NCBI GenBank assembly: GCA_902806095.1
Contig: CADCVF010000035.1
Coordinates: 1 to 43,877 of the forward strand
Direction: 5' to 3'
Length of the DNA stretch: 43,877 nt
DNA from: an uncultured Rubrobacteraceae bacterium
GTDB lineage: Bacteria; Actinomycetota; Rubrobacteria; Rubrobacterales; Rubrobacteraceae
Shown: piece by piece, positions 14,437 through 27,520 of the stretch
Numbering within the stretch: position 1 is the first letter of the stretch
How the letters are laid out: each line of letters begins with the position of its first letter
Translations under genes and position numbers: made by a program
The notes under the pieces: generated by a model
Seen by the model: only the letters and a program-made list of their open reading frames with translations
Database searches by the model: none
What the model was told of the DNA's origin: nothing

Positions 14437-14937
14437 ATGCACGTCTACTACGGTGCGGTCGACCTCCTGCGGATGTTCGCGCTCGCGGTCGGAACCTTCA
14501 TAATCTTCGCCGGCATTGTGCGCAGCGTCTTCGTCGCCCGCGGGGTTGGGGGAAGGGCCAGGGTGGCGCGCCAGATCGGGGAGCACGCCGCGCTCGGCCT
14601 CGATCTCTTCGTCGGGGCCACCCTGTTGAACCTCTCCATCGACCCCACGTGGACAGCCGTGGCTACGACGGCCATCACTATCGTCGTGCGCAAGCTGTTG
14701 ACGTTCTCGTTGGGCCTGCCGCAGCGGGAGGCCGACCCGGCGGGGGGCCTTCTACGGGATAAAGAACGGCAGCACGTAGGCCTGAATCGTGATCCAGACC
14801 GCCATCACGAGGGTGAGCGCGATGGACCACTTCAGGACGAGGCGCAACAGGTCGCCTTCCCTGCCTTGCAGGCCCGTGGCGCTCGTGCCGACGGCGAGGT
14901 TCTGTGGGGAGATCATCTTCCCAAGCACGCCGCCTGA
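14437..14937 (+). CDS. DUF1622 family membrane protein (second copy) with antisense-encoded tail
   Basis: About the first 95 residues form a DUF1622 protein: a TM helix around residues 10-32, the segment RQIGEHAALGLDLFVGATLL and a final TRV-like helix ending at FSLGLPQRE. The frame then has no stop and runs 186 bases into the 3' end of the convergent permease gene. That adds about 62 charged residues with no family resemblance. A run of six G at 14742-14747 lies just where the tail begins. A shift there in either direction would meet a stop by 14762 or 14779. Either the tail is real, or there is a frameshift (biological or sequencing) in this run. Its paralogue starts 386 bases upstream. Confidence 0.7.
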   Translation: MHVYYGAVDLLRMFALAVGTFIIFAGIVRSVFVARGVGGRARVARQIGEHAALGLDLFVGATLLNLSIDPTWTAVATTAITIVVRKLLTFSLGLPQREADPAGGLLRDKERQHVGLNRDPDRHHEGERDGPLQDEAQQVAFPALQARGARADGEVLWGDHLPKHAA

Positions 14938-16428
14938 GGAGTTGGCGCCGACCGTAAGGTTCGGGCTGACCCCGATCTGCTGGGCCGTGACCTTCTGCAA
15001 ATTGGCGAACAGGGCGTTGGAGGAGGTGTCCGAGCCGGTAAGCGCGACCCCAAGCCACCCGATAAACGAGGCGAAGAACGGGAACAGGACGCCGGTCGCG
15101 GCGAATGCGAGGCCAAGGGTGTAGGTTACGCCCGCGTAGTTCAGCAGGTAAGCGAGCCCGAGGATCGAGGCTATCGTGAGGATTGCAGACCAGAGTTGTT
15201 TGAGCGTCTGGCCGTAGATCCTAAGGCCCCGTCCAGGCCCGACCCTGAGGACCGCGAGGGCGATGAGGTCGGCGAGCAGGATGATCGTGCCCGCCGCCGA
15301 GAGCCAGTTGGTCGCGTAGGTGGCGGAGTAGGGGGCCGCTTCTGGTACGACCGGAGGTTGCTGTTCGACCTGCCCGTCGAGCCCAGGCCACGGCACGACA
15401 GGCAACCCGGTCGTGGGGTCCACCGCCGCCGAGGGAAAGTTCACAGCGGTCTGGATGCCGCCGACGGCGGCCTTGATCGGGGGCACCTGCACCAGCAGGA
15501 ACAACGCGACGATGATGATGAACGGCGACCACGCATAGAGCGTGCGACCGATGGGTGGGGTGTCGTAACTCTCGCGCTCATCCGCCGACGGCTCGTTCTC
15601 GAAGTGCCACTCGCTCGAAGGGCGCCAGAAAGAGAGAAGGCCGACTACTGCGACGACCGTGATCAGGGCCGCAAGCAGGTCGGCGAGCTCGGGGCCAAGG
15701 ACGTTCGAGACCACAAACTGCGTCCCCGCAAAGGCGATGCCGCTAACCGCGATCACCGGCCATACCTCCAACATCCGCCTGAAGCCTGACATCACCGTGA
15801 CGAGCATGGCGGGGATGATAAGCGCCAGAAGCGGTGTCTGGCGCCCTACCATCTGCGAGAGCTCCATGGTGTCCAACCCGGCTACGCTGGCCCCTGTCAG
15901 TATGGGTATGCCGAACCCGCCGAACGCAACCGGCGCCGTGTTCGCAAGCAGCGCCAACGCCGCCGCGTAGATGGCCTCGAAGCCCAGTCCGGCCATCAGT
16001 GAGGCCGTTATGGCGACTGGCGTCCCGAAGCCTGCCGTCGCCTCCAGGAGCGCCCCGAAGACGAAGGCTATAAGCACGACCTGTATCCGCCGGTCGTTGC
16101 TCACACCAGCGAGCGAGTCGCGGATGGTGTCGAAGAGGCCCGTGTCCACGATGACGTTGTAGATAAAGATGGCGTTGATAACGATCCAGACGATGGGAAA
16201 GAGCCCGAAGCAGATCCCAAGTAGCGTCGCGTCGAGTGCTAGTCCTATCGGCATCCTGTAGACCACCACAGAGATCACGAGCGCCACCGCCAGGGTAACG
16301 AGCGAGGCCCACTGCGCCGCGAGCCTGAGGCCTGCAAGCAATGCAAAGAGGACCAGGATGGGTATGGCGGCCACAATGGTCGAGAACACCAGGCTTCCGG
16401 CGACCGGCTCGTAGATCTGTTCGTACAC
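14752..16428 (-). CDS. L-lactate/glycolate permease, LctP family
   Basis: A 558-residue secondary transporter with about 13 membrane helices. Family motifs include FGALLEATAGFGTPVAI, ANTAPVAFGGFG and, in the last third, GVALTGSDTSSNALF and GANSSGGVLGKMISPQN. GTG at 16428 is preferred because GGGGAGGA is four to five bases upstream and gives the usual N-terminus VYEQIYEPVAGS. The family includes both LldP (lactate) and GlcA (glycolate). The gene sits 81 bases after glycerate 2-kinase on the same strand in the glyoxylate regulon, which favours glycolate, while the lutABC operon nearby favours lactate; both may be carried. The 3' end overlaps the second DUF1622 frame on the other strand. Confidence 0.9.
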   Translation of the reverse strand: MYEQIYEPVAGSLVFSTIVAAIPILVLFALLAGLRLAAQWASLVTLAVALVISVVVYRMPIGLALDATLLGICFGLFPIVWIVINAIFIYNVIVDTGLFDTIRDSLAGVSNDRRIQVVLIAFVFGALLEATAGFGTPVAITASLMAGLGFEAIYAAALALLANTAPVAFGGFGIPILTGASVAGLDTMELSQMVGRQTPLLALIIPAMLVTVMSGFRRMLEVWPVIAVSGIAFAGTQFVVSNVLGPELADLLAALITVVAVVGLLSFWRPSSEWHFENEPSADERESYDTPPIGRTLYAWSPFIIIVALFLLVQVPPIKAAVGGIQTAVNFPSAAVDPTTGLPVVPWPGLDGQVEQQPPVVPEAAPYSATYATNWLSAAGTIILLADLIALAVLRVGPGRGLRIYGQTLKQLWSAILTIASILGLAYLLNYAGVTYTLGLAFAATGVLFPFFASFIGWLGVALTGSDTSSNALFANLQKVTAQQIGVSPNLTVGANSSGGVLGKMISPQNLAVGTSATGLQGREGDLLRLVLKWSIALTLVMAVWITIQAYVLPFFIP

Positions 16429-16509
16429 CTGATCCTCCCCTTCCACGCTGTCCGACTCGAAAAGAATGGCAGCGCGTAAGGCCCGGCGCAAGTCCCCTGA
16501 CCACCCGCG

Positions 16510-17799
16510 TTAGAGGGCAGAGACGAGCGCCACCCTGAGGTCGTTTACGTTGGTGCCCGTCGGCCCCGTGACGAGCAGGGCACCTCCAGCCTCCAGCGCC
16601 GCATACGAGTCATTCCCAGCGAGCGCCCCCTCAGTGTCAACGTCGGCGTCCCTGATCCTCTGCGCCGTCCTCCCGTCAACGATCCCGCCTGCCGCGTAGG
16701 TCGAGCCGTCGTTGCCGTCTGTGTCCGCCGCGAACGCCGCCCAGCCCTCGATGCCGTCGAGCTCGACCGCAAGCGCCAGAGCGAATTCCTGGTTAGGGCC
16801 GCCGGCGCCGCTCCCGCGCACGGTCACCGTTGCCTCGCCGCCCGAGACGATGGCGCAAGGCGGAGGGGCCGGGTTGCCGCTCGCCAGTACTTCCTTGACT
16901 ATGGCCGCATACATCGAGACTGCCCCGAGGACGTCGCCTGTGAGGGTGGTGGTGAGCAGCAACGGCGTGTAACCAAGGTCCTCTGCCCTCTTCGCCGCGG
17001 CATCTGCCGCGTGCCAGCCGCCGCCGCAGATAAAGTTCACGACGTTCTCGAAGATGGGGTCGTCCGATGCCGGGGTCTCCTCAGCACCTTGCAGGTGTGT
17101 AGCGATGCTCTCCGGAGGCTCGATCTCGTAGCGCTCCAGTACACGTCGGGTGCCCTCGAGCGTCGTCGGGTCAGGGGCCGTGAGGCCGCTCGCGATGGAA
17201 GAGGGTTCGTCACCAACCACGTCCGAGAGCAGGAGGGCTATAGTCGGGGCCGGATGGGCCAGCCGTGCCAGGCCGCCGCCCTTCAACACAGAGACGTGCT
17301 TCCTTACGGTGTTGATCTCCCCTATTTCCGCTCCGCTTCTGAGGAGGTCACTCGTGAGCTTCTTCAGGTCCGCAAGCTCGATAGGAGGAGCCGGGTCGGC
17401 GAGCAGCGCCGAGGCCCCACCCGAGATGAGAGCAAGCAGCAGGCCGTCTTCTCCTAGCGACTCGGCCAGACCTTGTACTTTCCGGGCCGCCTCCACGCCG
17501 CGCTCGTCTGGCTCGGGGTGGGAGGCGAAGACGGTTTCCAGGCCCTCCGGCCCAGGGTCATGGTCGTCTTTGGTTACGATGAGACCGCCGGAGATCCTGT
17601 CCCCGAGCACTTCCACGGCTGCTCCGGCCATCGCGCCAGCGGCCTTGCCCGCCGCGACGACGGCTACGTTCCCTGCCTCGAAGGTGCGTCCGCCGACAGA
17701 GATCGAGCACTCTTCGAGGCGCACCGAGCGCAGCACGGCCTCCCTCGGATCCGCGGCGGCGAGGCCCGACGTGAGGATCTCTCTCAGGTCGTCCTTCAT
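16510..17799 (-). CDS. Glycerate 2-kinase (MOFRL family)
   Basis: A 429-residue kinase of the GckA/TtuD (MOFRL) family, which phosphorylates D-glycerate to 2-phosphoglycerate. Landmarks are VVAAGKAAGAMAGAA near residue 48, LISGGASALLADP near 125, LLLSDVVGDEPSSIASG near 200, VSGGEATVTVRG near 315 and the MOFRL ending with GPTGTNVNDLRVAL. It follows the carboligase gene by 9 bases on the same strand and supplies the last step from tartronate semialdehyde into glycolysis. It is unrelated to the GlxK/GarK fold of E. coli, so those symbols are not used. Confidence 0.92.
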   Translation of the reverse strand: MKDDLREILTSGLAAADPREAVLRSVRLEECSISVGGRTFEAGNVAVVAAGKAAGAMAGAAVEVLGDRISGGLIVTKDDHDPGPEGLETVFASHPEPDERGVEAARKVQGLAESLGEDGLLLALISGGASALLADPAPPIELADLKKLTSDLLRSGAEIGEINTVRKHVSVLKGGGLARLAHPAPTIALLLSDVVGDEPSSIASGLTAPDPTTLEGTRRVLERYEIEPPESIATHLQGAEETPASDDPIFENVVNFICGGGWHAADAAAKRAEDLGYTPLLLTTTLTGDVLGAVSMYAAIVKEVLASGNPAPPPCAIVSGGEATVTVRGSGAGGPNQEFALALAVELDGIEGWAAFAADTDGNDGSTYAAGGIVDGRTAQRIRDADVDTEGALAGNDSYAALEAGGALLVTGPTGTNVNDLRVALVSAL

Positions 17800-17808
17800 G
17801 AAGACATT

Positions 17809-19593
17809 CTAGTCCCTCTCCGGGAGAGGACTCGAGGGTTCGGGGGCTTTGTCCTCGACGGGCTCGAACTCGTTTATGGCGTCTATGGAGACGCCCATCG
17901 CCGCGTCCGTCTCCCGCTCCACGATGACCTCGACTAGCGCAGGGACCCGCTTCTCCTCGCTGGCCTCGACGGCCCACCGGAACGCCTCCTTCATGTCCTC
18001 GGGTTTCGTGACCCGGCGGCCCAGAGCGCCCTGGGACTCCATAAAGGTGACGAAGTCCACGCCCATCGAGCCTTCCGGTCCCTCGTTCGGTCCCTCCCCG
18101 TCCGGCCCCTCGTAGGCGAAGCTCACCGCGAAGTCCATGTCGTACGTCTTATCCTCGGGCTGCCGGATCAGGCTCGCGTAGGCGTTGTTCAGCATGACCA
18201 GCACGTAGGGTACTCTGTACTGGACGGCGACCGCAACTTCTTCCTCGAGAAACTGGAAGGTGTAGTCCCCGACGACCCCCACGACCAGGCTCCCAGGCCT
18301 GCCGAGCTTCGCCCCGAGGCACGCGGGGACCTCCCACCCTAAGGGTCCCGCCTGCCCGCAGCAGAGGTAGTGGCGTGGCTTGTAGGTCTTCTGGAACTGT
18401 CCCGACCAGATCTGGTAGAGCCCGATGGCCGTCACGAAGATGGTGTCTTCATCGAAGAGTTCGTTTATCTCCTCGAAGACCCGCTGCGGTTTGATCGGCA
18501 CGTCGTCGAAATCCGTCTTCCTGAGCATGGTCGAGCGCAGCTCGTCGACCCTCTCGACCCAGGAATCGGGTTCGCGCGCCCCGGTCAAGTCGTCGGCGGC
18601 GGAGCGCATGGCCTGCAGGGCGAGCTTGGCGTCGGAGACGATGCCAAGCTCGGGCGGGATGACCCTGCCTAGCTGGAAGGGGTCTATGTCTATGTGGACG
18701 AACTTCCGATCTCCCCTGTAGATCTCCGGGTCCCCAGTGTGCCGTTCGGCCCAGCGGTTGCCGATGCCGACGACCAGATCGCTCTCCAGGAAGAGCGCGT
18801 TGGCGTAGCGCTGGCTGGTCTGGATGCCGACGATCCCGGCGTAGAGTGGGTGGTTCTCGGGGATGACGCCCTTGCCCATGTACGTTGGGGTCACAGGCAC
18901 CTGGAGGTACTCGGCGAGCTCCACAAGCTCTTCCCAGGCTTCGGCTATGATGACCCCGGCGCCGGGCATCAGCATCGGCCTCTCTGCCGCGAGGATCATC
19001 TCGACCGCACGCTGGATGGCGTCCGGGTTCGGTTCGGGCTTCTCGAAAGAGAGCGGGCTGTCGAGCGCCGGGTCGTACTCTACCTCCTGGCCCTGCGTCA
19101 CGTTGAGCGGCAGGTCTATGAGGACAGGACCGGGGCGTCCCTCGCGCGCTATCTTGAAGGCCTTGCGGAGGATCCAGGGTATCTGGGCCGTCCCCTTGGC
19201 CTGCACGGCCCACTTGGTGACCGGCTTTGCTATCTCCACTATGTCCACGGCCTGAAAGGCTTCCTGGTGCAGCATGTGTGTCGGGGCCTGTCCCGTAATG
19301 CAAATGATCGGTATAGAGTCGGCTATCGCCGTGTAGAGGCCCGTGATCATGTTCGTCCCCGCGGGTCCCGAGGTGCCAATGTTGATGCCTATCTTCCCCG
19401 TCACCCTGGAGTAGCCGTCCGCCGCGTGCGTCCCACCCTCCTCGTGGCGCACGGCGAGGGTCTCGATCTTTTCCGAACCCTCGAGCGCCTTGAATAGGGG
19501 CAGGATCGCCGCCCCCGGTATGCCGAAGACGTACTCGACGCCCTCGTCTTCCATAATCTGTACCGCCGCCTCCATGACAGTCATCTTCGCCAC
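17809..19593 (-). CDS. gcl: Glyoxylate carboligase (tartronate-semialdehyde synthase)
   Basis: A 594-residue ThDP- and FAD-dependent enzyme that joins two glyoxylates into tartronate semialdehyde and CO2. It matches E. coli Gcl along its length: MAKM start, FGIPGAAI, GTSGPAGTNMITGLY, AVDIVEIAKPVTKWAV, GIVGIQTSQRYANA, LRKTDFDDVPIKPQRV, CCGQAGPLGW and GDYTFQFLEEE. GTG at 19593 is chosen because GGAAGGAGG lies just upstream and the resulting length equals the E. coli enzyme. Residue 51 is Glu (VRHEEGGTH), where E. coli Gcl has the unusual Val51 (RHVEGASH). The context (hyi, glxR, glycerate kinase, glcDEF) supports the function strongly. Divergent from the IclR gene. Confidence 0.94.
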   Translation of the reverse strand: MAKMTVMEAAVQIMEDEGVEYVFGIPGAAILPLFKALEGSEKIETLAVRHEEGGTHAADGYSRVTGKIGINIGTSGPAGTNMITGLYTAIADSIPIICITGQAPTHMLHQEAFQAVDIVEIAKPVTKWAVQAKGTAQIPWILRKAFKIAREGRPGPVLIDLPLNVTQGQEVEYDPALDSPLSFEKPEPNPDAIQRAVEMILAAERPMLMPGAGVIIAEAWEELVELAEYLQVPVTPTYMGKGVIPENHPLYAGIVGIQTSQRYANALFLESDLVVGIGNRWAERHTGDPEIYRGDRKFVHIDIDPFQLGRVIPPELGIVSDAKLALQAMRSAADDLTGAREPDSWVERVDELRSTMLRKTDFDDVPIKPQRVFEEINELFDEDTIFVTAIGLYQIWSGQFQKTYKPRHYLCCGQAGPLGWEVPACLGAKLGRPGSLVVGVVGDYTFQFLEEEVAVAVQYRVPYVLVMLNNAYASLIRQPEDKTYDMDFAVSFAYEGPDGEGPNEGPEGSMGVDFVTFMESQGALGRRVTKPEDMKEAFRWAVEASEEKRVPALVEVIVERETDAAMGVSIDAINEFEPVEDKAPEPSSPLPERD

Positions 19594-19691: not shown

Positions 19692-19778
19692 ACGGCTTGA
19701 CGACCTTCGCGCGACATGAGAGCCTTCCGTCGATGCGTGTTATGCGACGTTCTACGAGATACGGACGGTGATATCGGG

Positions 19779-20540
19779 GTGGGACCCGAGGGCGCGGTAC
19801 GCTCGGTCGAGCGGGCACTGGACATTCTGGAGTTCCTGAGCCGGTCGGGGGGAGAAGTCGGGGTGAGCGAGATCGGGGATGCTACCGGTCTTGCGGCGGG
19901 GACGGCACACCGACTTCTCGGTACCCTGGCCGCCCGGGACTACGTCCACAGGGACGACCAGACCCGGAAGTATGGCCTGGGGCTGAGATCCCTGACTATG
20001 GCCATCGCCACCAGGGAGCGCATCGGGACGTTCGCCCTGCCCTTTTTGGAAGAGTTGATGCGGACGAGCCAGGAGACCGCCAACCTGGCCATCCTGGAGG
20101 CGACCTCGACCGTTTACATGGAGCAATTGGCCCCACCCACCCGGATGCTGCGCATGTTCACCGAGCCGGGCAACCGTGTGCCCCTGCACTCGACCGGTAC
20201 AGGGAAGGTCCTGCTGGCCTACCAGCCGCCCCGCCTCGTAGACTTTATGGTCGCCCGCGCGGGCCTGCCCCGGCAGACCGTCAGCACCATAACCGACCCC
20301 TCCCAACTGCGGAAGGAACTCCAACGGGTTCGCAAGGAGGGCTACGCAGTGGACTTCGAGGAACAGGAGGAAGGCGTCCGTTGCCTCGCCGCCCCCGTCT
20401 TCGGCCCTGACGGCGAGGTCTTCGCCGCCATGAGCATCTCCGGTCCCGCGAGTCGACTGAAGAAAAGACGGATAAACGAGCTTGTAACTGATATCAAGAG
20501 GATCTCCGCCGCCTTCTCGGAGGCTTTCGGCTCGTACTGA
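19779..20540 (+). CDS. IclR family transcriptional regulator
   Basis: A 253-residue IclR-type regulator. The N-terminal winged helix-turn-helix runs from RSVERALDILEFL through SEIGDATGLAAGTAHRLL. The C-terminal effector domain includes PLHSTGTGKVLLAY and a final GCL-like AAPVFGPDGEVFAAMSISG. GTG at 19779 is preferred since GGTGAT, matching the anti-SD core, is six bases upstream; an ATG at 19716 in the same frame has no such site. It stands between gcl (divergent) and hyi (co-directional) and is the obvious candidate to control both. AllR of E. coli is an IclR protein that senses glyoxylate, so glyoxylate or a related acid is a reasonable but unproved ligand. Confidence 0.9.
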   Translation: MGPEGAVRSVERALDILEFLSRSGGEVGVSEIGDATGLAAGTAHRLLGTLAARDYVHRDDQTRKYGLGLRSLTMAIATRERIGTFALPFLEELMRTSQETANLAILEATSTVYMEQLAPPTRMLRMFTEPGNRVPLHSTGTGKVLLAYQPPRLVDFMVARAGLPRQTVSTITDPSQLRKELQRVRKEGYAVDFEEQEEGVRCLAAPVFGPDGEVFAAMSISGPASRLKKRRINELVTDIKRISAAFSEAFGSY

Positions 20541-20646: not shown

Positions 20647-21468
20647 ATGAGGTTCTGCGCTAACATCTTCGTGTTGTTCGGCGAGGTTCCGTTCCTGGAG
20701 CGCTTCGGGCGGGCGGTGGAGGCGGGTTTCTCGGCTGTCGAGTTCTGGTGGCCAGGGGCTGCGGGTGAGGACCCTGGGGAGGTCGAGAGGGCGATCAAGG
20801 ACGCGGGGCTCGGGGTCGCGCTCTTCAACTTCGACGCCGGGGACATGTTGGGGGCCGGAGACCGGGGGTTGGCCGGTGATCCGGAGCGGGAGATGCAGTT
20901 CCGGGAGAACGTGCCCGTGGCGCTAGAGCTGGCAAGGTCCCTCGACTGCCTGAGGATGAACGTCCTCGTCGGGCTCGAGATAGACGGCATGGGGAGAGAG
21001 GAGCAGCTCGAGCTCGCGAGGAAGAACGTCGGGTTCGCCGCCGACGAAGCTCGAGATGCCGGCGTCGAGGTCATGGTGGAGGCGTTGAGCACGTTCGATA
21101 ACGGACCGTATCTGTTGAACACGACGGAGCAGGCGGTCGAATTCGTGAAGAGCGTGGGCCGCGAGAACGTGAAGATACAGCACGACTTCTTCCAGATGCA
21201 GCGGATGGAGGGGAACCTGGTCGCCAACTTCAGGGAGCACTTCGCTGCGGTGGGGCACGTCCAGATCGCCGACTCACCTGAGCGCGGGGAGCCGGGGACG
21301 GGCGAGATCCACTACCCTTACGTCTTTAATGTTCTGGAGGAGCTGGGCTACGATGGCTACGTCGGTCTCGAATACGGCCCGACGACGGAGACGACGGAGG
21401 AGAGCCTCGGGTGGTTGCCCAAAGAGTTGCGTGGCAAAGACGTCAAAGTTTCGGACTTGAGGCTTTAG
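20647..21468 (+). CDS. hyi: Hydroxypyruvate isomerase
   Basis: A 273-residue TIM-barrel sugar-isomerase-like protein that interconverts hydroxypyruvate and tartronate semialdehyde. The N-terminus RFCANIFVLFGEVPFLERF, FSAVEFWWP, MVEALST (catalytic Glu), IQHDFFQMQRMEGN and YVGLEYGP (second metal-ligand Glu) match Hyi. ATG start with GGAGGGG six bases upstream. First gene of the rightward operon, followed after 24 bases by glxR, the usual partner. Confidence 0.9.
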   Translation: MRFCANIFVLFGEVPFLERFGRAVEAGFSAVEFWWPGAAGEDPGEVERAIKDAGLGVALFNFDAGDMLGAGDRGLAGDPEREMQFRENVPVALELARSLDCLRMNVLVGLEIDGMGREEQLELARKNVGFAADEARDAGVEVMVEALSTFDNGPYLLNTTEQAVEFVKSVGRENVKIQHDFFQMQRMEGNLVANFREHFAAVGHVQIADSPERGEPGTGEIHYPYVFNVLEELGYDGYVGLEYGPTTETTEESLGWLPKELRGKDVKVSDLRL

Positions 21469-21492: not shown

Positions 21493-22383
21493 ATGGGTGA
21501 AAGAATAGGGTTCGTAGGCTTGGGGATCATGGGCGGACCCATGGCGAAGAACCTCATGGAGGCGGATTACGAACTGGTGCTCTACAACCGCACCAAAGAG
21601 AAAGCCGAGGAGATAGCCGGGGACGGAGCCACCGTCGCCGACAACCCCAGGGAGGTGGCGGAGAACAGCGACATCGTCGTCACCATGCTCCCCGATTCAC
21701 CGCAGGTCGAGGAGGTCCTGGCCGGCGAGGACGGGGTTCTCGAAGGGATAGGAGAGGGTTCGCTGCTCGTGGACATGAGCACCATCTCGCCTGTGGTTAC
21801 CAAGGAGCTCGCGGAGAAGGTCGCAGAACGCGGCGCCTCGATGCTCGACGCGCCGGTCAGCGGGGGCCAGCCTGGGGCAGAAGAAGGCTCGCTCTCGATC
21901 ATGGTCGGCGGGAGCGAGGAGGACTTCGAGCGGATGAGGCCCCTCTTTGATGTGATGGGCAGCGCCGCCACGCACGTCGGGCCGGTGGGGACCGGGCAGG
22001 TGGTCAAGGCCTGCAACCAGATCGTGGTCGCCCTCACCATAGAGGCGGTCTCCGAGGCATTGGTGCTCGGCTCGAAGGCGGGGGTAAAGCCGGAGAAAGT
22101 GGTCGAGGCCCTCTCCGGGGGCCTGGCTGGCAGCGCGGTGATGGAGGCGAAGAAAGAGAAGTTCTTCGGCCACGACTTCGACCCGGGGTTTAGGGTAGAA
22201 TTGCACCACAAGGATCTTGGTATAGCACTCGCGGCCGGTAGGGAGTACGGCGTAACCCTTCCCGTCACGGCAGTCGTAGATCAGATGCTTCAAGACCTGA
22301 AGATGAGGGGAAGAGGGGATCTTGACCACTCCGCGATCCTCACGCTCATAGAAGAATCGTCCGGGCACGAGATAGGGAGCTAG
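21493..22383 (+). CDS. glxR: 2-hydroxy-3-oxopropionate (tartronate semialdehyde) reductase
   Basis: A 296-residue beta-hydroxyacid dehydrogenase that reduces tartronate semialdehyde to D-glycerate with NAD(P)H. It has the Rossmann motif GFVGLGIMGGPMAKNL, the substrate motif DAPVSGGQPGAEEG and the catalytic lysine in GQVVKACNQ. The C-terminal helical domain is complete (HHKDLGIALAAGRE). ATG start with AAGGAGG upstream. The fold alone cannot separate GlxR/GarR from 3-hydroxyisobutyrate dehydrogenase, but its position between hyi and glcD makes the glycerate-pathway role very likely. Confidence 0.9.
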   Translation: MGERIGFVGLGIMGGPMAKNLMEADYELVLYNRTKEKAEEIAGDGATVADNPREVAENSDIVVTMLPDSPQVEEVLAGEDGVLEGIGEGSLLVDMSTISPVVTKELAEKVAERGASMLDAPVSGGQPGAEEGSLSIMVGGSEEDFERMRPLFDVMGSAATHVGPVGTGQVVKACNQIVVALTIEAVSEALVLGSKAGVKPEKVVEALSGGLAGSAVMEAKKEKFFGHDFDPGFRVELHHKDLGIALAAGREYGVTLPVTAVVDQMLQDLKMRGRGDLDHSAILTLIEESSGHEIGS

Positions 22384-22412: not shown

Positions 22413-23867
22413 ATGGACCGGGGACAGCTCATAGAGACGATGCAGGAGATCCTCGGCCCCGAGGGTGTTATCCACGAGCGCGAGCAGCTGCGCACCTACG
22501 AGTGCGACGGCCTGATGAACTACCGGGTGATCCCCGACCTCGTCGTCCTCCCCGAGTCTGCAGAGCAGGTCCAGCAGATAGTCCAGACGTGTTACGACGA
22601 GGGCATCCCTTTCGTGGCGCGGGGCTCGGGAACGGGACTGTCGGGAGGTGCTTTGCCTGTCGAGTCCGGCGTCCTCATCGTCCTGACCAGGATGCGCCGT
22701 ATCCTCGAGGTAGATATCCCGAACGGGCGCGTCGTCGTCGAGCCCGGTGTCATAAACATCTGGGTCTCCCAGGAGGTCGCGGACGAAGGCTACTACTACG
22801 CCCCTGACCCGGCGAGCCAGATCGTCTCCTCCATCGGCGGGAACCTCGCTGAGAACTCGGGCGGGGTCCACTGCCTGAAGTACGGCTTCACGACGAACCA
22901 CGTAATGGGGGCCGAGGTGGTCCTGGCCGACGGCTCGGTCGTCCACATCGGCGGCGGCAAGGCTCCAGACGCCCCCGGCTATGAACTCCTCGGCGCCTTC
23001 GTTGGCTCGGAAGGAACTCTAGGCATCGCCACGAAGATAACGCTCAGGATCTTGCGCAAGCCAGAGGCAGTAAGGACGCTGCTCGCGGCGTTCAAGGACA
23101 CGGAGGAGGCGGGTGGGGCGGTCTCGGGGATCATCGGCGGTGGCATAGTGCCGGCCGCCATCGAGATGATGGACGCGCTAACCATCGAGGCGGTAGAGAA
23201 ACAGGTCTCGCCGGGCTTCCCGGAGGCTGGTGCTATCCTGATCGTCGAGCTCGACGGGCCTGAGGCCGAGGTCGCGAACCAGTTCGATCAGGTCATAAAG
23301 GTCTGCGAGGAGAACGACGCCTCGGAGATAAGGATCGCCGAGGACGACGAGGAGCGCGCCCTGTTCTGGAAGGGTCGGAAGGCCGCGTTCGGTGCGATGG
23401 GCTCGATCTCCAACGACTACTACGTCCAGGATGGGGTCGTCCCGCGCACGGAGCTCGGGGCAGTCCTTAAGAAGATAGCGGACTTGAGCGAAGAGTACGA
23501 CCTCAGAGTCGCCAACGTCTTCCACGCCGGCGACGGCAACCTCCACCCGCTAGTCCTCTACGACAACGACACCCCCGGTGAGGCAGACAAGGCCGAGGAG
23601 CTGGCCGGGGAGATCGTCTTCGCCTGCCTGGAGCACGGCGGGTCGCTTACGGGCGAGCACGGCATCGGGCGCGACAAGATGAAATACATGCCCCAGATGT
23701 TCACCGCAGACGACATGGACGTCATGCAGCTCCTCAGGTGCGCTTTCGACCCGCACAGGATCTGCAACCCGGGCAAGATCTTCCCGACCCCACGCCTGTG
23801 CGGCGAACGCCCTGGCCCCTTCCACATGCATCCCGTCCAGAAGGCCGGCCTGGCGGAGAATTTCTGA
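22413..23867 (+). CDS. glcD: Glycolate oxidase FAD subunit D
   Basis: A 484-residue FAD-linked oxidase that oxidises glycolate to glyoxylate. The FAD-binding PCMH domain shows PFVARGSGTGLSGGA near residue 70 and GSEGTLGIATKITLRIL near 200. The C-terminal FAD-oxidase domain has NVFHAGDGNLHP and SLTGEHGIGRDK, and ends with FDPHRICNPGKIFP. ATG start with GGGAAGGA upstream. The TGA stop overlaps the ATG of glcE (TGATG), so the subunits are translationally coupled. Confidence 0.94.
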   Translation: MDRGQLIETMQEILGPEGVIHEREQLRTYECDGLMNYRVIPDLVVLPESAEQVQQIVQTCYDEGIPFVARGSGTGLSGGALPVESGVLIVLTRMRRILEVDIPNGRVVVEPGVINIWVSQEVADEGYYYAPDPASQIVSSIGGNLAENSGGVHCLKYGFTTNHVMGAEVVLADGSVVHIGGGKAPDAPGYELLGAFVGSEGTLGIATKITLRILRKPEAVRTLLAAFKDTEEAGGAVSGIIGGGIVPAAIEMMDALTIEAVEKQVSPGFPEAGAILIVELDGPEAEVANQFDQVIKVCEENDASEIRIAEDDEERALFWKGRKAAFGAMGSISNDYYVQDGVVPRTELGAVLKKIADLSEEYDLRVANVFHAGDGNLHPLVLYDNDTPGEADKAEELAGEIVFACLEHGGSLTGEHGIGRDKMKYMPQMFTADDMDVMQLLRCAFDPHRICNPGKIFPTPRLCGERPGPFHMHPVQKAGLAENF

Positions 23868-25147
23868 TGCAGACGCAGAACGTCCCCACGGAAGAGCTGC
23901 AGGGCATAGTAGGCGAAGGGCACGTTAGGGAAGCCACAGCCGAGGACGCCGTGGACGGCGTGGGTCCCTCCCTCGTCGTCGAGCCGGCGACGATCGAGGA
24001 GACGAGCGAGGTCATGAAGCTCGCGAGCCGCGAAGGGCTCGCCGTCTCGCCGTGCGGCGGAGGGACCAAGATGGGCCTCGGGAACCCCCCCCGGGAGGTC
24101 GACCTCATCCTCAGCACCGCGCGCATGGACCAGATCATAGAGCACGTCCCCGGCGACCAGATCGTACGGGCCCAGGCTGGCGTCAGACTGGAAGACTTGC
24201 AGGAGAAGCTCGCCGAGGCGGACCAGATGCTAGGCGTGGACCCTCCCGAAGAAGGAGCCACCATCGGGGGTATAGTGGCGGCGAACTCGTCGGGACCTCG
24301 GCGCCTCAGGTACGGCACGGTGAGGGACCTGATCATCGGAATAAAAGTCGTGCTCGCCGACGGCACGGTGGCGAAGGCCGGTGGCAAGGTGGTCAAGAAC
24401 GTGGCCGGATACGACCTCTCCAAGCTATTCACGGGCTCTCTGGGGACCCTCGGCGTCATCGCCGAGGCGAACTTCAGGCTACACCCGATCCGGGAGACGG
24501 CCAGGACCGTCTTCCTGGAAGTAGACGACCACAACAAGATACCGGACGTGGCGCAGGAACTCACGCACTCCTCCTTCAGCCAGTTCGTGCTCGACGCCCT
24601 GGAGATGCGCTGGGAAAGAGACCGGGGCGTCATCGCCGCCTTGTTCGAGGGGATCGAACCCGCCGTGGTGGCGCAGTCCTCGAGAGCGGTCGAGGTTTTG
24701 GGCTCCCACGGCGAGACGCGCGTACTCGGTGAGGACGACGGTGAAGCTTTCTGGGAGCATTTCGCGCGGCGGCCCTGGGCCGCGGGCGACGTGGGGCTCA
24801 AGATCGGCGCCCCGCCCGCCGACCTCGCGGCCGTTCTCGACTCGATCGTAGGAGCGGCGGAACGCGCGGACGCCGAGATCCGCCTCTCGGGTCACGCCGG
24901 AACCGGGGTGACCTTCGCGGGGTTCTCCGGCGACGAAGACGGGCTCGTCGAGATCGTCGAGGAGGTGCGCGAGATCCGGGTCCGCAGGGGCGGCAGCGTC
25001 GTCGTACAAGAGGCTCCTCTCGCCGTCAAAGAGAGGCTGGACGCGTGGGGGTCCAGCGGGGACTACCTCGGCCTCACGCGGCGGGTAAAAGAGAAGTTCG
25101 ATCCGGGGTACATCATGAACCCCGGTAGATTCCTGGGAGGCATCTAG
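23867..25147 (+). CDS. glcE: Glycolate oxidase FAD-binding subunit E
   Basis: A 426-residue FAD-binding subunit of the GlcDEF complex. The shortened PCMH domain has AVSPCGGGTKMGLGN, GATIGGIVAANSSGPRRLRYG and KVVKNVAGYDLSKLF, all typical of GlcE. ATG at 23867 overlaps the glcD stop; the frame is open upstream inside glcD but that part is a shadow. Its TAG stop shares a base with the GTG of glcF. In E. coli all three subunits are needed for activity at the membrane. Confidence 0.93.
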   Translation: MQTQNVPTEELQGIVGEGHVREATAEDAVDGVGPSLVVEPATIEETSEVMKLASREGLAVSPCGGGTKMGLGNPPREVDLILSTARMDQIIEHVPGDQIVRAQAGVRLEDLQEKLAEADQMLGVDPPEEGATIGGIVAANSSGPRRLRYGTVRDLIIGIKVVLADGTVAKAGGKVVKNVAGYDLSKLFTGSLGTLGVIAEANFRLHPIRETARTVFLEVDDHNKIPDVAQELTHSSFSQFVLDALEMRWERDRGVIAALFEGIEPAVVAQSSRAVEVLGSHGETRVLGEDDGEAFWEHFARRPWAAGDVGLKIGAPPADLAAVLDSIVGAAERADAEIRLSGHAGTGVTFAGFSGDEDGLVEIVEEVREIRVRRGGSVVVQEAPLAVKERLDAWGSSGDYLGLTRRVKEKFDPGYIMNPGRFLGGI

Positions 25148-26607
25148 TGACCGAGCGGCGAAACCCCGAGGGCACGACGGGCGAGGAGGCGATGGCTGGA
25201 GCGATCGGCGCGGGGAGCCCGGAGGACATCGGCCAGAGCACGCACGCCGCGAGCGACTCCATTCAACAGACCGTCGGCGCAGCCCGGCCAGAGAGCGGCT
25301 CCTACATGTTCCCGGCCTTCGACGCCCACCACCCGCCCGATAAGGACCTCATAGACGACTGCGTCCACTGCGGATTCTGCCTCCCTACATGCCCGACCTA
25401 CGTCCTGTTCGGTGAGGAGATGGACTCACCGCGCGGGCGCATCTACCTGATGAACAAGGGCCTCACCGAGGAGCCGATGAACGATGAGATGGTCCGCCAC
25501 TGGGACCTCTGCCTGGGGTGCATGGCCTGCGTTACGGCCTGCCCTTCAGGCGTGCAGTACGACAAGCTTATCGAGTCCACCCGCCAGCAGGTCGAACGCC
25601 GCTACGAGCGCCGGGCCGACGACAAGGTCTTCAGGGAGATGATCTTCCAGTTCTTCCCCTATCCCAACCGCCTGCGGGCCGTCGCCGCCCCGATGCGCCT
25701 CTACCAGCGCTTCGGGATCGGGGACAAGCTGCGCAGGGCTGGCATCATGCAACGCATCCCGGCCAGGATGCGGGCTATGGAGGCGCTCCTGCCGGATCTG
25801 CCAAAGGAAGAGAAGATCCCTGACCTCACAGGTCCTTTAGGCGAGATGCGTCGCAGGGTCGGTGTCCTGACGGGCTGCGTGCAGCGGGTCTTCTTCTCCC
25901 CAGTCAACGCCGCAACCGTCCGCGTCCTCGCCGCCGAGGGCTGTGAGGTCGTCGCCCCCAAACAGGGTTGTTGCGGCGCCCTCTCCACCCACGCGGGCCG
26001 CGAGGAGGAGTCCCTGGACTTCGCCCGCAAGACCATAGAGACCTTCGATGACCTGAACCTGGACAACGTTATCGTCAACGCCGCTGGCTGCGGCTCGACG
26101 ATGAAAGAGTACGGTTACCTACTGCGCGACGACCCTGAGTACGCCGAGCGGGCGAAGGCTTTCAGCGCGAAGGTCCGCGACGTCTCGGAGTTTTTGCAGG
26201 AGCTTGGCCCCGTGGCAGAGCGGAACCCGCTTCCCGTTACGGCGGCCTACCACGACGCCTGCCACCTGGCGCATGCGCAGGGCATCCGCCGCCAGCCGCG
26301 CCAGACCCTCAAGCAGATCCCGGGGATGGACGTAAAGGAGATAAGGGAGGCCGAGATCTGCTGCGGATCCGCGGGAATCTACAATATGATCGAACCCGAA
26401 CCGGCCGCCGAGCTCGGGGAGCGCAAGGCGAACAATATCCTCAAGACAGGGGCACAGATTATCGTCACCTCCAACCCCGGTTGTATGCTGCAGATACAGT
26501 CTTCCCTGAAGAAGATGGGCCGGGACGGCCTCCCGATGGCCCACCCTGTGGAGGTTCTCGACGCCTCCCTGCGCGGAGATCCTGTAGAGACGCTGCTCGA
26601 CAAATAG
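25147..26607 (+). CDS. glcF: Glycolate oxidase iron-sulfur subunit F
   Basis: A 486-residue subunit with two [4Fe-4S] motifs, CVHCGFCLPTCPTY near residue 75 and CLGCMACVTACPSG near 120, followed by two CCG domains (KQGCCGALSTHAG and AEICCGSAGIYN). GTG at 25147 shares its G with the glcE stop (TAGTG). The first 55 residues are a low-complexity Gly/Ala/Ser-rich extension before the ferredoxin domain, longer than in E. coli GlcF. An ATG within that extension (25192) could be the true start. The product passes electrons from GlcD/E to the respiratory chain. Confidence 0.93.
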   Translation: MTERRNPEGTTGEEAMAGAIGAGSPEDIGQSTHAASDSIQQTVGAARPESGSYMFPAFDAHHPPDKDLIDDCVHCGFCLPTCPTYVLFGEEMDSPRGRIYLMNKGLTEEPMNDEMVRHWDLCLGCMACVTACPSGVQYDKLIESTRQQVERRYERRADDKVFREMIFQFFPYPNRLRAVAAPMRLYQRFGIGDKLRRAGIMQRIPARMRAMEALLPDLPKEEKIPDLTGPLGEMRRRVGVLTGCVQRVFFSPVNAATVRVLAAEGCEVVAPKQGCCGALSTHAGREEESLDFARKTIETFDDLNLDNVIVNAAGCGSTMKEYGYLLRDDPEYAERAKAFSAKVRDVSEFLQELGPVAERNPLPVTAAYHDACHLAHAQGIRRQPRQTLKQIPGMDVKEIREAEICCGSAGIYNMIEPEPAAELGERKANNILKTGAQIIVTSNPGCMLQIQSSLKKMGRDGLPMAHPVEVLDASLRGDPVETLLDK

Positions 26608-26608
26608 C

Positions 26609-27520
26609 ATGATAGCCACCCGCTCTCTCCTCGCCGTCCCAGCGACGCGACGGAAGATGGTCGAGAAGGCGCTCGCCTCGGACGCCGACGCCGTGTTCTT
26701 AGACCTCGAAGACGCCGTCGCCCCTGACAGCAAGGCCGCTGCCCGCGGAGACGTTGTCTCTGCTCTAAAGGAGATCGAGTGGCACGATCGTCCGACACTC
26801 TTCAGGGCCAACGCCATGGACACGCCTTACTTCTACCGGGACCTGATCGAGGTGGTAGAAGAGGCCGGCGACTCTCTAGACGCCATCATAGTCCCTAAGG
26901 TGAACCGTCCCGAGGACCTCTACGCCGTCTCCGTCCTGCTCTCTCAGCTGGAGCTGGCGATGGACCTGCAAAAGGGCAAGATAAAGCTCGAAGCCCAGAT
27001 AGAGAGCGCCGAAGGGCTGACCAACGTGGACGTCATTGCCGGCTCCACCCCCCGCCTTGAAGCCCTCCACTTCGGTCCCGGCGATTTCGCGGCGAGCCTG
27101 AACATGCCCCTGACCAGCATCGGCGTGATGGACGAGTGGGACGACGCATACCCTGGTCACCGCTTCCACTACGCCATGCAGCGCATCGTCGTCGCGGCCC
27201 GCGCCGCCGGGCTGCGCGTCCTCGACGGCCCCGTCGCTGACTACGGCGACGAGGATGGGCTGCGCAGAAGCTGCCTGATCGCCCGCTCACTGGGCTTCGA
27301 CGGCAAGTGGTGCATCCACCCGGCCCAGATAGCGGTCGTCAATACGATCTTCTCGCCTACCGAAAAAGAGGTGGATTGGGCGAAGAAGGTCGTCGCAGCC
27401 TACGAGGAGGCGAACGCCGCCGGCTCGGGCTCGGTGAGCGTGGACGGGCAGATGGTTGACGCCGCCTCCATAAAGCTGGCGCGCAACATGCTCGGCGAGG
27501 TCCCGAAGAAAGACACTTGA
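26609..27520 (+). CDS. CoA-ester lyase, CitE / malyl-CoA lyase family
   Basis: A 303-residue TIM-barrel enzyme of the HpcH/HpaI-CitE superfamily. Landmarks are RSLLAVPATRRKMVEKAL (CoA-binding Arg), FLDLEDAVAPDSK, AQIESAEGLTNV (metal-ligand Glu), FGPGDFAASL (metal-ligand Asp) and GKWCIHPAQI. It is the last gene of the glyoxylate operon, starting one base after the glcF stop. Members reversibly split malyl-CoA or methylmalyl-CoA into glyoxylate plus acetyl- or propionyl-CoA. A role linking glyoxylate to acetyl-CoA is therefore likely here. No citrate lyase alpha or gamma genes are present, which argues against citrate lyase. Confidence 0.86.
   Translation: MIATRSLLAVPATRRKMVEKALASDADAVFLDLEDAVAPDSKAAARGDVVSALKEIEWHDRPTLFRANAMDTPYFYRDLIEVVEEAGDSLDAIIVPKVNRPEDLYAVSVLLSQLELAMDLQKGKIKLEAQIESAEGLTNVDVIAGSTPRLEALHFGPGDFAASLNMPLTSIGVMDEWDDAYPGHRFHYAMQRIVVAARAAGLRVLDGPVADYGDEDGLRRSCLIARSLGFDGKWCIHPAQIAVVNTIFSPTEKEVDWAKKVVAAYEEANAAGSGSVSVDGQMVDAASIKLARNMLGEVPKKDT

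Follow-up and report, generated by a model that had tools for sequence, protein, structure and literature searches.

Among ThDP enzymes, glyoxylate carboligase (Gcl) is the usual textbook case of one that lacks the catalytic glutamate. At the standard position 51, 94% of the decarboxylase superfamily has Glu and 3% has Val, and Val51 has been described as a trait of glyoxylate carboligases as a whole (PMC3534367). The closest described system is Gcl from E. coli (P0AEP7, PDB 2PAN), which resembles the protein discussed here in its length, its three TPP-enzyme domains and its hyi-glxR operon. The large subunit of acetolactate synthase (IlvB/IlvI, AHAS) shares Glu51, the overall fold family and a conserved equivalent of R284, but the identity is only about 35% on average; I393 and mostly also I479 are replaced by Val, L421 and L478 by Met, and E52 by Gln. 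Sulfoacetaldehyde acetyltransferase also belongs to the POX family of ThDP enzymes, but has Glu (E510) where Gcl and our protein have Ile479 and AHAS has Val; both I479 and Q115 are listed for Gcl (PMC13327070).

The DNA analysed here, referred to as the window, is a stretch of 43,877 nucleotides from an uncultured Rubrobacteraceae bacterium, a soil actinobacterium. It encodes a Gcl homologue with Glu at position 51, and dozens of relatives of the host carry the same type. Such sequences contradict the view that Val51 is family-wide (PMC3534367). Sequence comparison suggests, with a probability that we put at roughly 0.8, that the protein is a working glyoxylate carboligase which keeps the canonical ThDP-activating Glu, and that Glu51 is old while Val51 arose once. 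The Glu51 type is a variant with a directly testable consequence for the ThDP mechanism.

The gcl gene and residue 51

The gene and the codon of interest are as follows.

17809..19593, minus strand: gcl, Gcl homologue of the Glu51 type, 594 aa, GTG start (matches NF008431 and 2PAN)
19441..19443, minus strand: codon 51, GAG (Glu), equivalent to Val51 of E. coli Gcl (phmmer alignment)

On the minus strand the frame runs from a GTG start at 19593, preceded by a GGAGG-like site, to a stop at 17809; plus frame 1 of 17809-19593 is interrupted by stops. The phmmer alignment to E. coli Gcl (2PAN) starts at residue 1, opposite the Met of that enzyme, and there are no gaps up to residue 65. Glu51, within RHEEGGTH (residues 49-56; RHVEGASH in E. 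coli Gcl), is therefore the true equivalent of Val51. The preliminary description had reported this Glu, and had named a Val at the true equivalent position as the observation that would overturn it; the alignment was inspected for such a Val, and Glu stands there. The neighbouring Glu52 was considered as the catalytic residue and ruled out, since the alignment is gap-free and Val51 Gcls also have Glu52. Gcl homologues (E 1e-150 or better) occur in 20 of 39 genomes of the window's class, and every one with a readable residue 51 has Glu there, so that Glu51 is not an effect of chance or sequencing. An AlphaFold model of the window Gcl, made from a five-row alignment, had a mean pLDDT of 63, with the active-site stretches below 50.

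Gene neighbourhood

The genes surrounding gcl are listed below in the order of their coordinates.

14752..16491, minus strand: LctP-family lactate/glycolate permease (TIGR00795, 518.9 bits, above cut-off)
16510..17799, minus strand: glycerate 2-kinase homologue (MOFRL type), directly downstream of gcl (NF041176, 224.9 bits, below cut-off)
19716..20540, plus strand: IclR-type regulator, divergent from gcl (best models BhcR, IclR and AllR, all below cut-off)
20647..21468, plus strand: hydroxypyruvate isomerase homologue, hyi (TIGR03234, 283 bits, cut-off 353)
21493..22383, plus strand: tartronate semialdehyde reductase, glxR (TIGR01505, 380.9 bits, above cut-off 340.75)
22413..23867, plus strand: glycolate oxidase subunit GlcD homologue (TIGR00387, 526.7 bits, cut-off 567.9)
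23738..25147, plus strand: glycolate oxidase subunit GlcE homologue (listed ORF)
25147..26607, plus strand: glycolate oxidase subunit GlcF homologue (NF008434, 324.5 bits, cut-off 333)
26609..27520, plus strand: HpcH/HpaI (CitE-like) lyase, right behind glcF (below all specific NCBIfam cut-offs)

This is a glycolate-to-glycerate cluster, in which gcl is accompanied by both tartronate semialdehyde reductase and hydroxypyruvate isomerase. The start of the listed glcE ORF overlaps glcD, and therefore the true start is probably later. The CitE-like lyase could carry out a second step on acyl-CoA/glyoxylate. A HipA-like kinase ORF (PF20613; 36023-36874, minus strand) lies elsewhere in the window, outside the cluster.

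Where the flanks were read, hyi and glxR both lie within 6 kb of gcl in 44 of 48 Glu51 loci; glxR is present in 46, and at least one of the two in 47. Two Glu51 members have glxR without hyi, which counts against a glyoxylate carboligase function. All 15 Val51 loci have the hyi/glxR neighbourhood. The proposal that the gene context points to glyoxylate is supported both by these loci and by the glycolate cluster of the window. One locus is arranged differently: in L075 (5263-8625) the genes behind a deep Glu51 Gcl are glxR (above the TIGR01505 cut-off), one for a sugar kinase of the PfkB type and one for a radical SAM protein of the KamA family, in place of hyi and the MOFRL glycerate kinase.

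Active-site residues and function

Residues were compared across 75 Glu51 sequences (73 forming the main set, plus L054 and G078) and 32 Val51 sequences. There are 34 residues that are near-invariant (at least 98%) in all Gcls sampled, of both types, and absent from seven acetolactate synthases; E. coli Gcl and the window protein have these in common, and they include I393, L395, L421 and L478. All 73 main Glu51 sequences, that of the window included, have the pocket residues I393, L421, L478, I479 and Q115, and R284, H285 and T286 are likewise unchanged in Glu51 Gcls.

At a different set of 34 positions, Val51 Gcls carry a nearly constant residue that hardly ever occurs in the main Glu51 set. 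The two types appear to differ at a minimum of five active-region positions besides 51, as judged from motif position and from earlier structural studies of the E. coli enzyme; on that basis we take 51, 283, 392, 396, 448 and 483 to line the active site. Position 283 is Asn in the Val51 type and D/E in the Glu51 type (Ser in L054), 392 is Thr versus Ala, 396 Ser versus Tyr, 448 Asp versus S/G/T, and 483 Gln versus E/S. Of the 32 Val51 Gcls, 28 have Arg484; most Glu51 sequences have Ile, Leu, Met or Lys at this position, and the acceptor may therefore be bound differently. Compared with E. coli Gcl, the window protein has Glu for Val51, Glu for Asn283, Ala for Thr392, Tyr for Ser396, Thr for Asp448 and Glu for Gln483, while Lys482 stands near the equivalent of Arg484; the placement of 483 and 484 is uncertain here, because there is a one-residue insertion beside them.

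The reaction of the Glu51 type is most likely still that of a glyoxylate carboligase, because hyi and glxR adjoin most of its loci and the hydrophobic signature residues of Gcl are kept; substrate, activity and kinetics are predicted here. It had been suggested that the enzyme might prefer another 2-oxoacid, for which we find no support, given the conserved neighbourhood and pocket. A related possibility is that a different donor or acceptor is used (pyruvate plus glyoxylate, formaldehyde or glycolaldehyde), with self-condensation of glyoxylate a minor activity. The residues at 283, 396, 448, 483 and 484 are indeed unlike those of Val51 Gcl, and could tune the acceptor. Two of them, 283 and 484, are also altered in the deposited E. 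coli Gcl variant 8i05 (N283Q and R484M, read from the alignment), which was reportedly engineered for formaldehyde. Such a change of substrate is nevertheless unlikely, in view of the 44 loci with hyi and glxR, the full glycolate oxidase set in the window, and the unchanged R284, H285, T286 and I393/L421/L478/I479 pocket.

As a working glyoxylate carboligase, the enzyme would convert two glyoxylate to tartronate semialdehyde and CO2 (tartronate semialdehyde synthase). Glu51 would protonate or hydrogen-bond N1' of ThDP, giving the amino-imino tautomer and then the C2 ylide. Glyoxylate would add to C2 of ThDP and be decarboxylated, and the resulting C2-alpha carbanion, left unprotonated by the hydrophobic Gcl-type pocket (I393, L421, L478 and I479, E. 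coli numbering), could there attack a second glyoxylate. The product, once released, would be reduced by GlxR and then phosphorylated by glycerate kinase.

An observation that counts against this scheme is that introduction of Glu into E. coli Gcl (V51E) reportedly lowers the overall activity, in work by Kaplun et al. in 2008. The gcl of Pseudonocardia dioxanivorans CB1190 is reported to have been active in Rhodococcus (Grostern 2012); it is left aside as evidence on the Glu51 type, since genome G987, at first taken for that strain, carries the plasmids of Nocardiopsis changdeensis. No activity data on Glu51 Gcl members were found in the literature searched, nor any paper on Glu51 Gcl in the open literature, where most subscription journals are missing. 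Natural Glu51 Gcls that work in the same pathway would mean that the reaction can do without Val. They make it possible to address the trade-off between cofactor activation and the later steps with natural enzymes instead of one point mutant.

Phylogeny and the direction of change

The tree was rooted with an outgroup of eight acetolactate synthase-like rows, all of which have Glu51. The Val51 sequences form one clade inside Gcl (support 100/100). The window protein falls on the Gcl side, with acetolactate synthase outside, at 100/99 in the first tree and 100/100 with the trait columns masked. L054 and G078, the two Glu51 sequences with the motif RHEEAATH, hold a special position. In the first tree L054 alone groups with the Val51 clade (100/97); with eight trait columns masked, L054 and G078 together are its sisters (98/92). 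At the 34 positions that separate the types, they are already of the Val51 type at 10, and not both so at 24. An AU test did not reject a single Glu51 clade (p-AU 0.35), and strict paraphyly of Glu51 is for this reason not claimed; a grade, with L054 and G078 as sisters to Val51, is favoured but not proven. The question of whether Glu51 defines a clade thus has a divided answer: it marks a Gcl group that reaches well beyond Rubrobacterales, but that group may be a grade.

Outgroup parsimony gives one Glu to Val change, on the stem of the Val51 clade, under either topology. Since Val51 is a single clade and the acetolactate synthase outgroup is all Glu51, Val51 is best read as derived and Glu51 as ancestral, with the loss occurring later within the Gcl family. 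The opposite polarity would have Val51 ancestral and Glu51 regained in an actinobacterial lineage by a single-base change, GTG to GAG. The two codons are only one nucleotide apart, and one Glu51 clade passes the AU test, so topology alone permits one reversion. This history is quite improbable all the same: it needs an extra change, since the acetolactate synthase outgroups all have Glu; further changes would be required if L054 and G078 are the closest kin of the Val51 clade; and positions 82 (N), 31 (L) and 150 (A) are alike in the main Glu51 Gcls and acetolactate synthase.

With Glu51 taken as ancestral, we think it somewhat more likely than not that the Glu51 Gcl is the original form surviving in Actinomycetota, and that Glu was lost once, in an enzyme already in the glxR pathway, by way of an active-site package. 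The proposed package would combine E51V with N283, T392, S396, D448 and Q483. Val51 would have arisen once together with A392T, Y396S and S/G448D, and also with Asn replacing an acid or Ser at 283, Gln replacing E/S at 483 and, usually, the appearance of Arg at 484. The Glu51 Gcls indicate that the change ran from Glu to Val and which residues changed along with it; on this reading the steps of the loss could be replayed, because the intermediates (L054 and G078) still exist.

Family assignment

The window protein scores 856.8 bits against NF008431, the NCBIfam equivalog for Gcl, where the cut-off is 791. It falls short of the older equivalog TIGR01504 (684.6 bits, cut-off 711.2), which counts against the assignment. 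Glu51 by itself does not explain the low score, since the Glu51 protein of L075 (8622-10355) exceeds both cut-offs (920.3 against 791 for NF008431, 828.6 against 711.2 for TIGR01504). With phmmer, the window protein gives 602-606 bits to Gcl structures (604 for 2PAN), to which it is about half identical, and 307 bits to the best acetolactate synthase. There is no second Gcl in the same genome, where the next best match (337 bits) is acetolactate synthase-like.

An acetolactate synthase-like enzyme wrongly named Gcl would have Glu51, as here, and would match the acetolactate synthase model TIGR00118, as the window protein does with 476.1 bits, but this is extremely improbable given that the cut-off of that model (538.35 bits) is missed, the Gcl structures score and align far better, the tree places the protein inside Gcl, and the genome has its own separate acetolactate synthase-like gene (L002). 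The identification as Gcl made in the preliminary description therefore stands, by the tree and by the glyoxylate gene cluster; a tree placing the protein outside Gcl, which would have spoken against it, was not obtained. Val at the standard position 51 is lacking. Because tree, pocket residues and synteny all agree, we regard Val51 as too narrow a definition and not as grounds for exclusion. This carries a warning for annotation, in that a Gcl motif defined by Val51 overlooks a large actinobacterial group.

Distribution

The Gcl cut-off was passed in 41 of 396 Actinomycetota genomes. Their scores fall into two groups, one of about 1080-1135 bits, with Val51 in all that were read, and one of 840-925 bits, with Glu51 in all that were read. 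Glu51 was found in groups f1, f13, f27, f36, f39, f43, f79 and f94, plus two genomes of f19, and also in Nonomuraea gerenzanensis and Nocardiopsis; both types occur within families f13, f19 and f39. A close match to the window protein is present in 34 of 40 genomes of genus g352, which is Nocardiopsis because the plasmids of its member G987 are identical to those of Nocardiopsis changdeensis. The remaining Actinomycetota that were read have Val51, as do the plasmid records read from Pseudomonadota and Deinococcota. A search of viral contigs for Gcl gave only distant relatives, of 40% or less.

Some Rubrobacterales have two or three Glu51 gcl genes (L010 606-2384 and 3879-5471; G008 C180 and C74), in one case nearly in tandem. 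One copy is of the window type (88-93% identical) and there is a second type (about 72-77%). G220, from another class, has two gcl copies (L072 and L073), each 72.2% identical to the window, and both share this identity and an odd motif, RHEEGGTHAADALA, with L024 of the Rubrobacterales genome G007; they are probably assembly contamination. Finally, L168 (9175-10968; G518 C2:892893-894296) encodes a Gcl homologue with Gly51 (RHGESAAN), which is missing the stretch that bears the asparagine of the ThDP motif and has no hyi or glxR nearby, and which may have decayed or changed its function.
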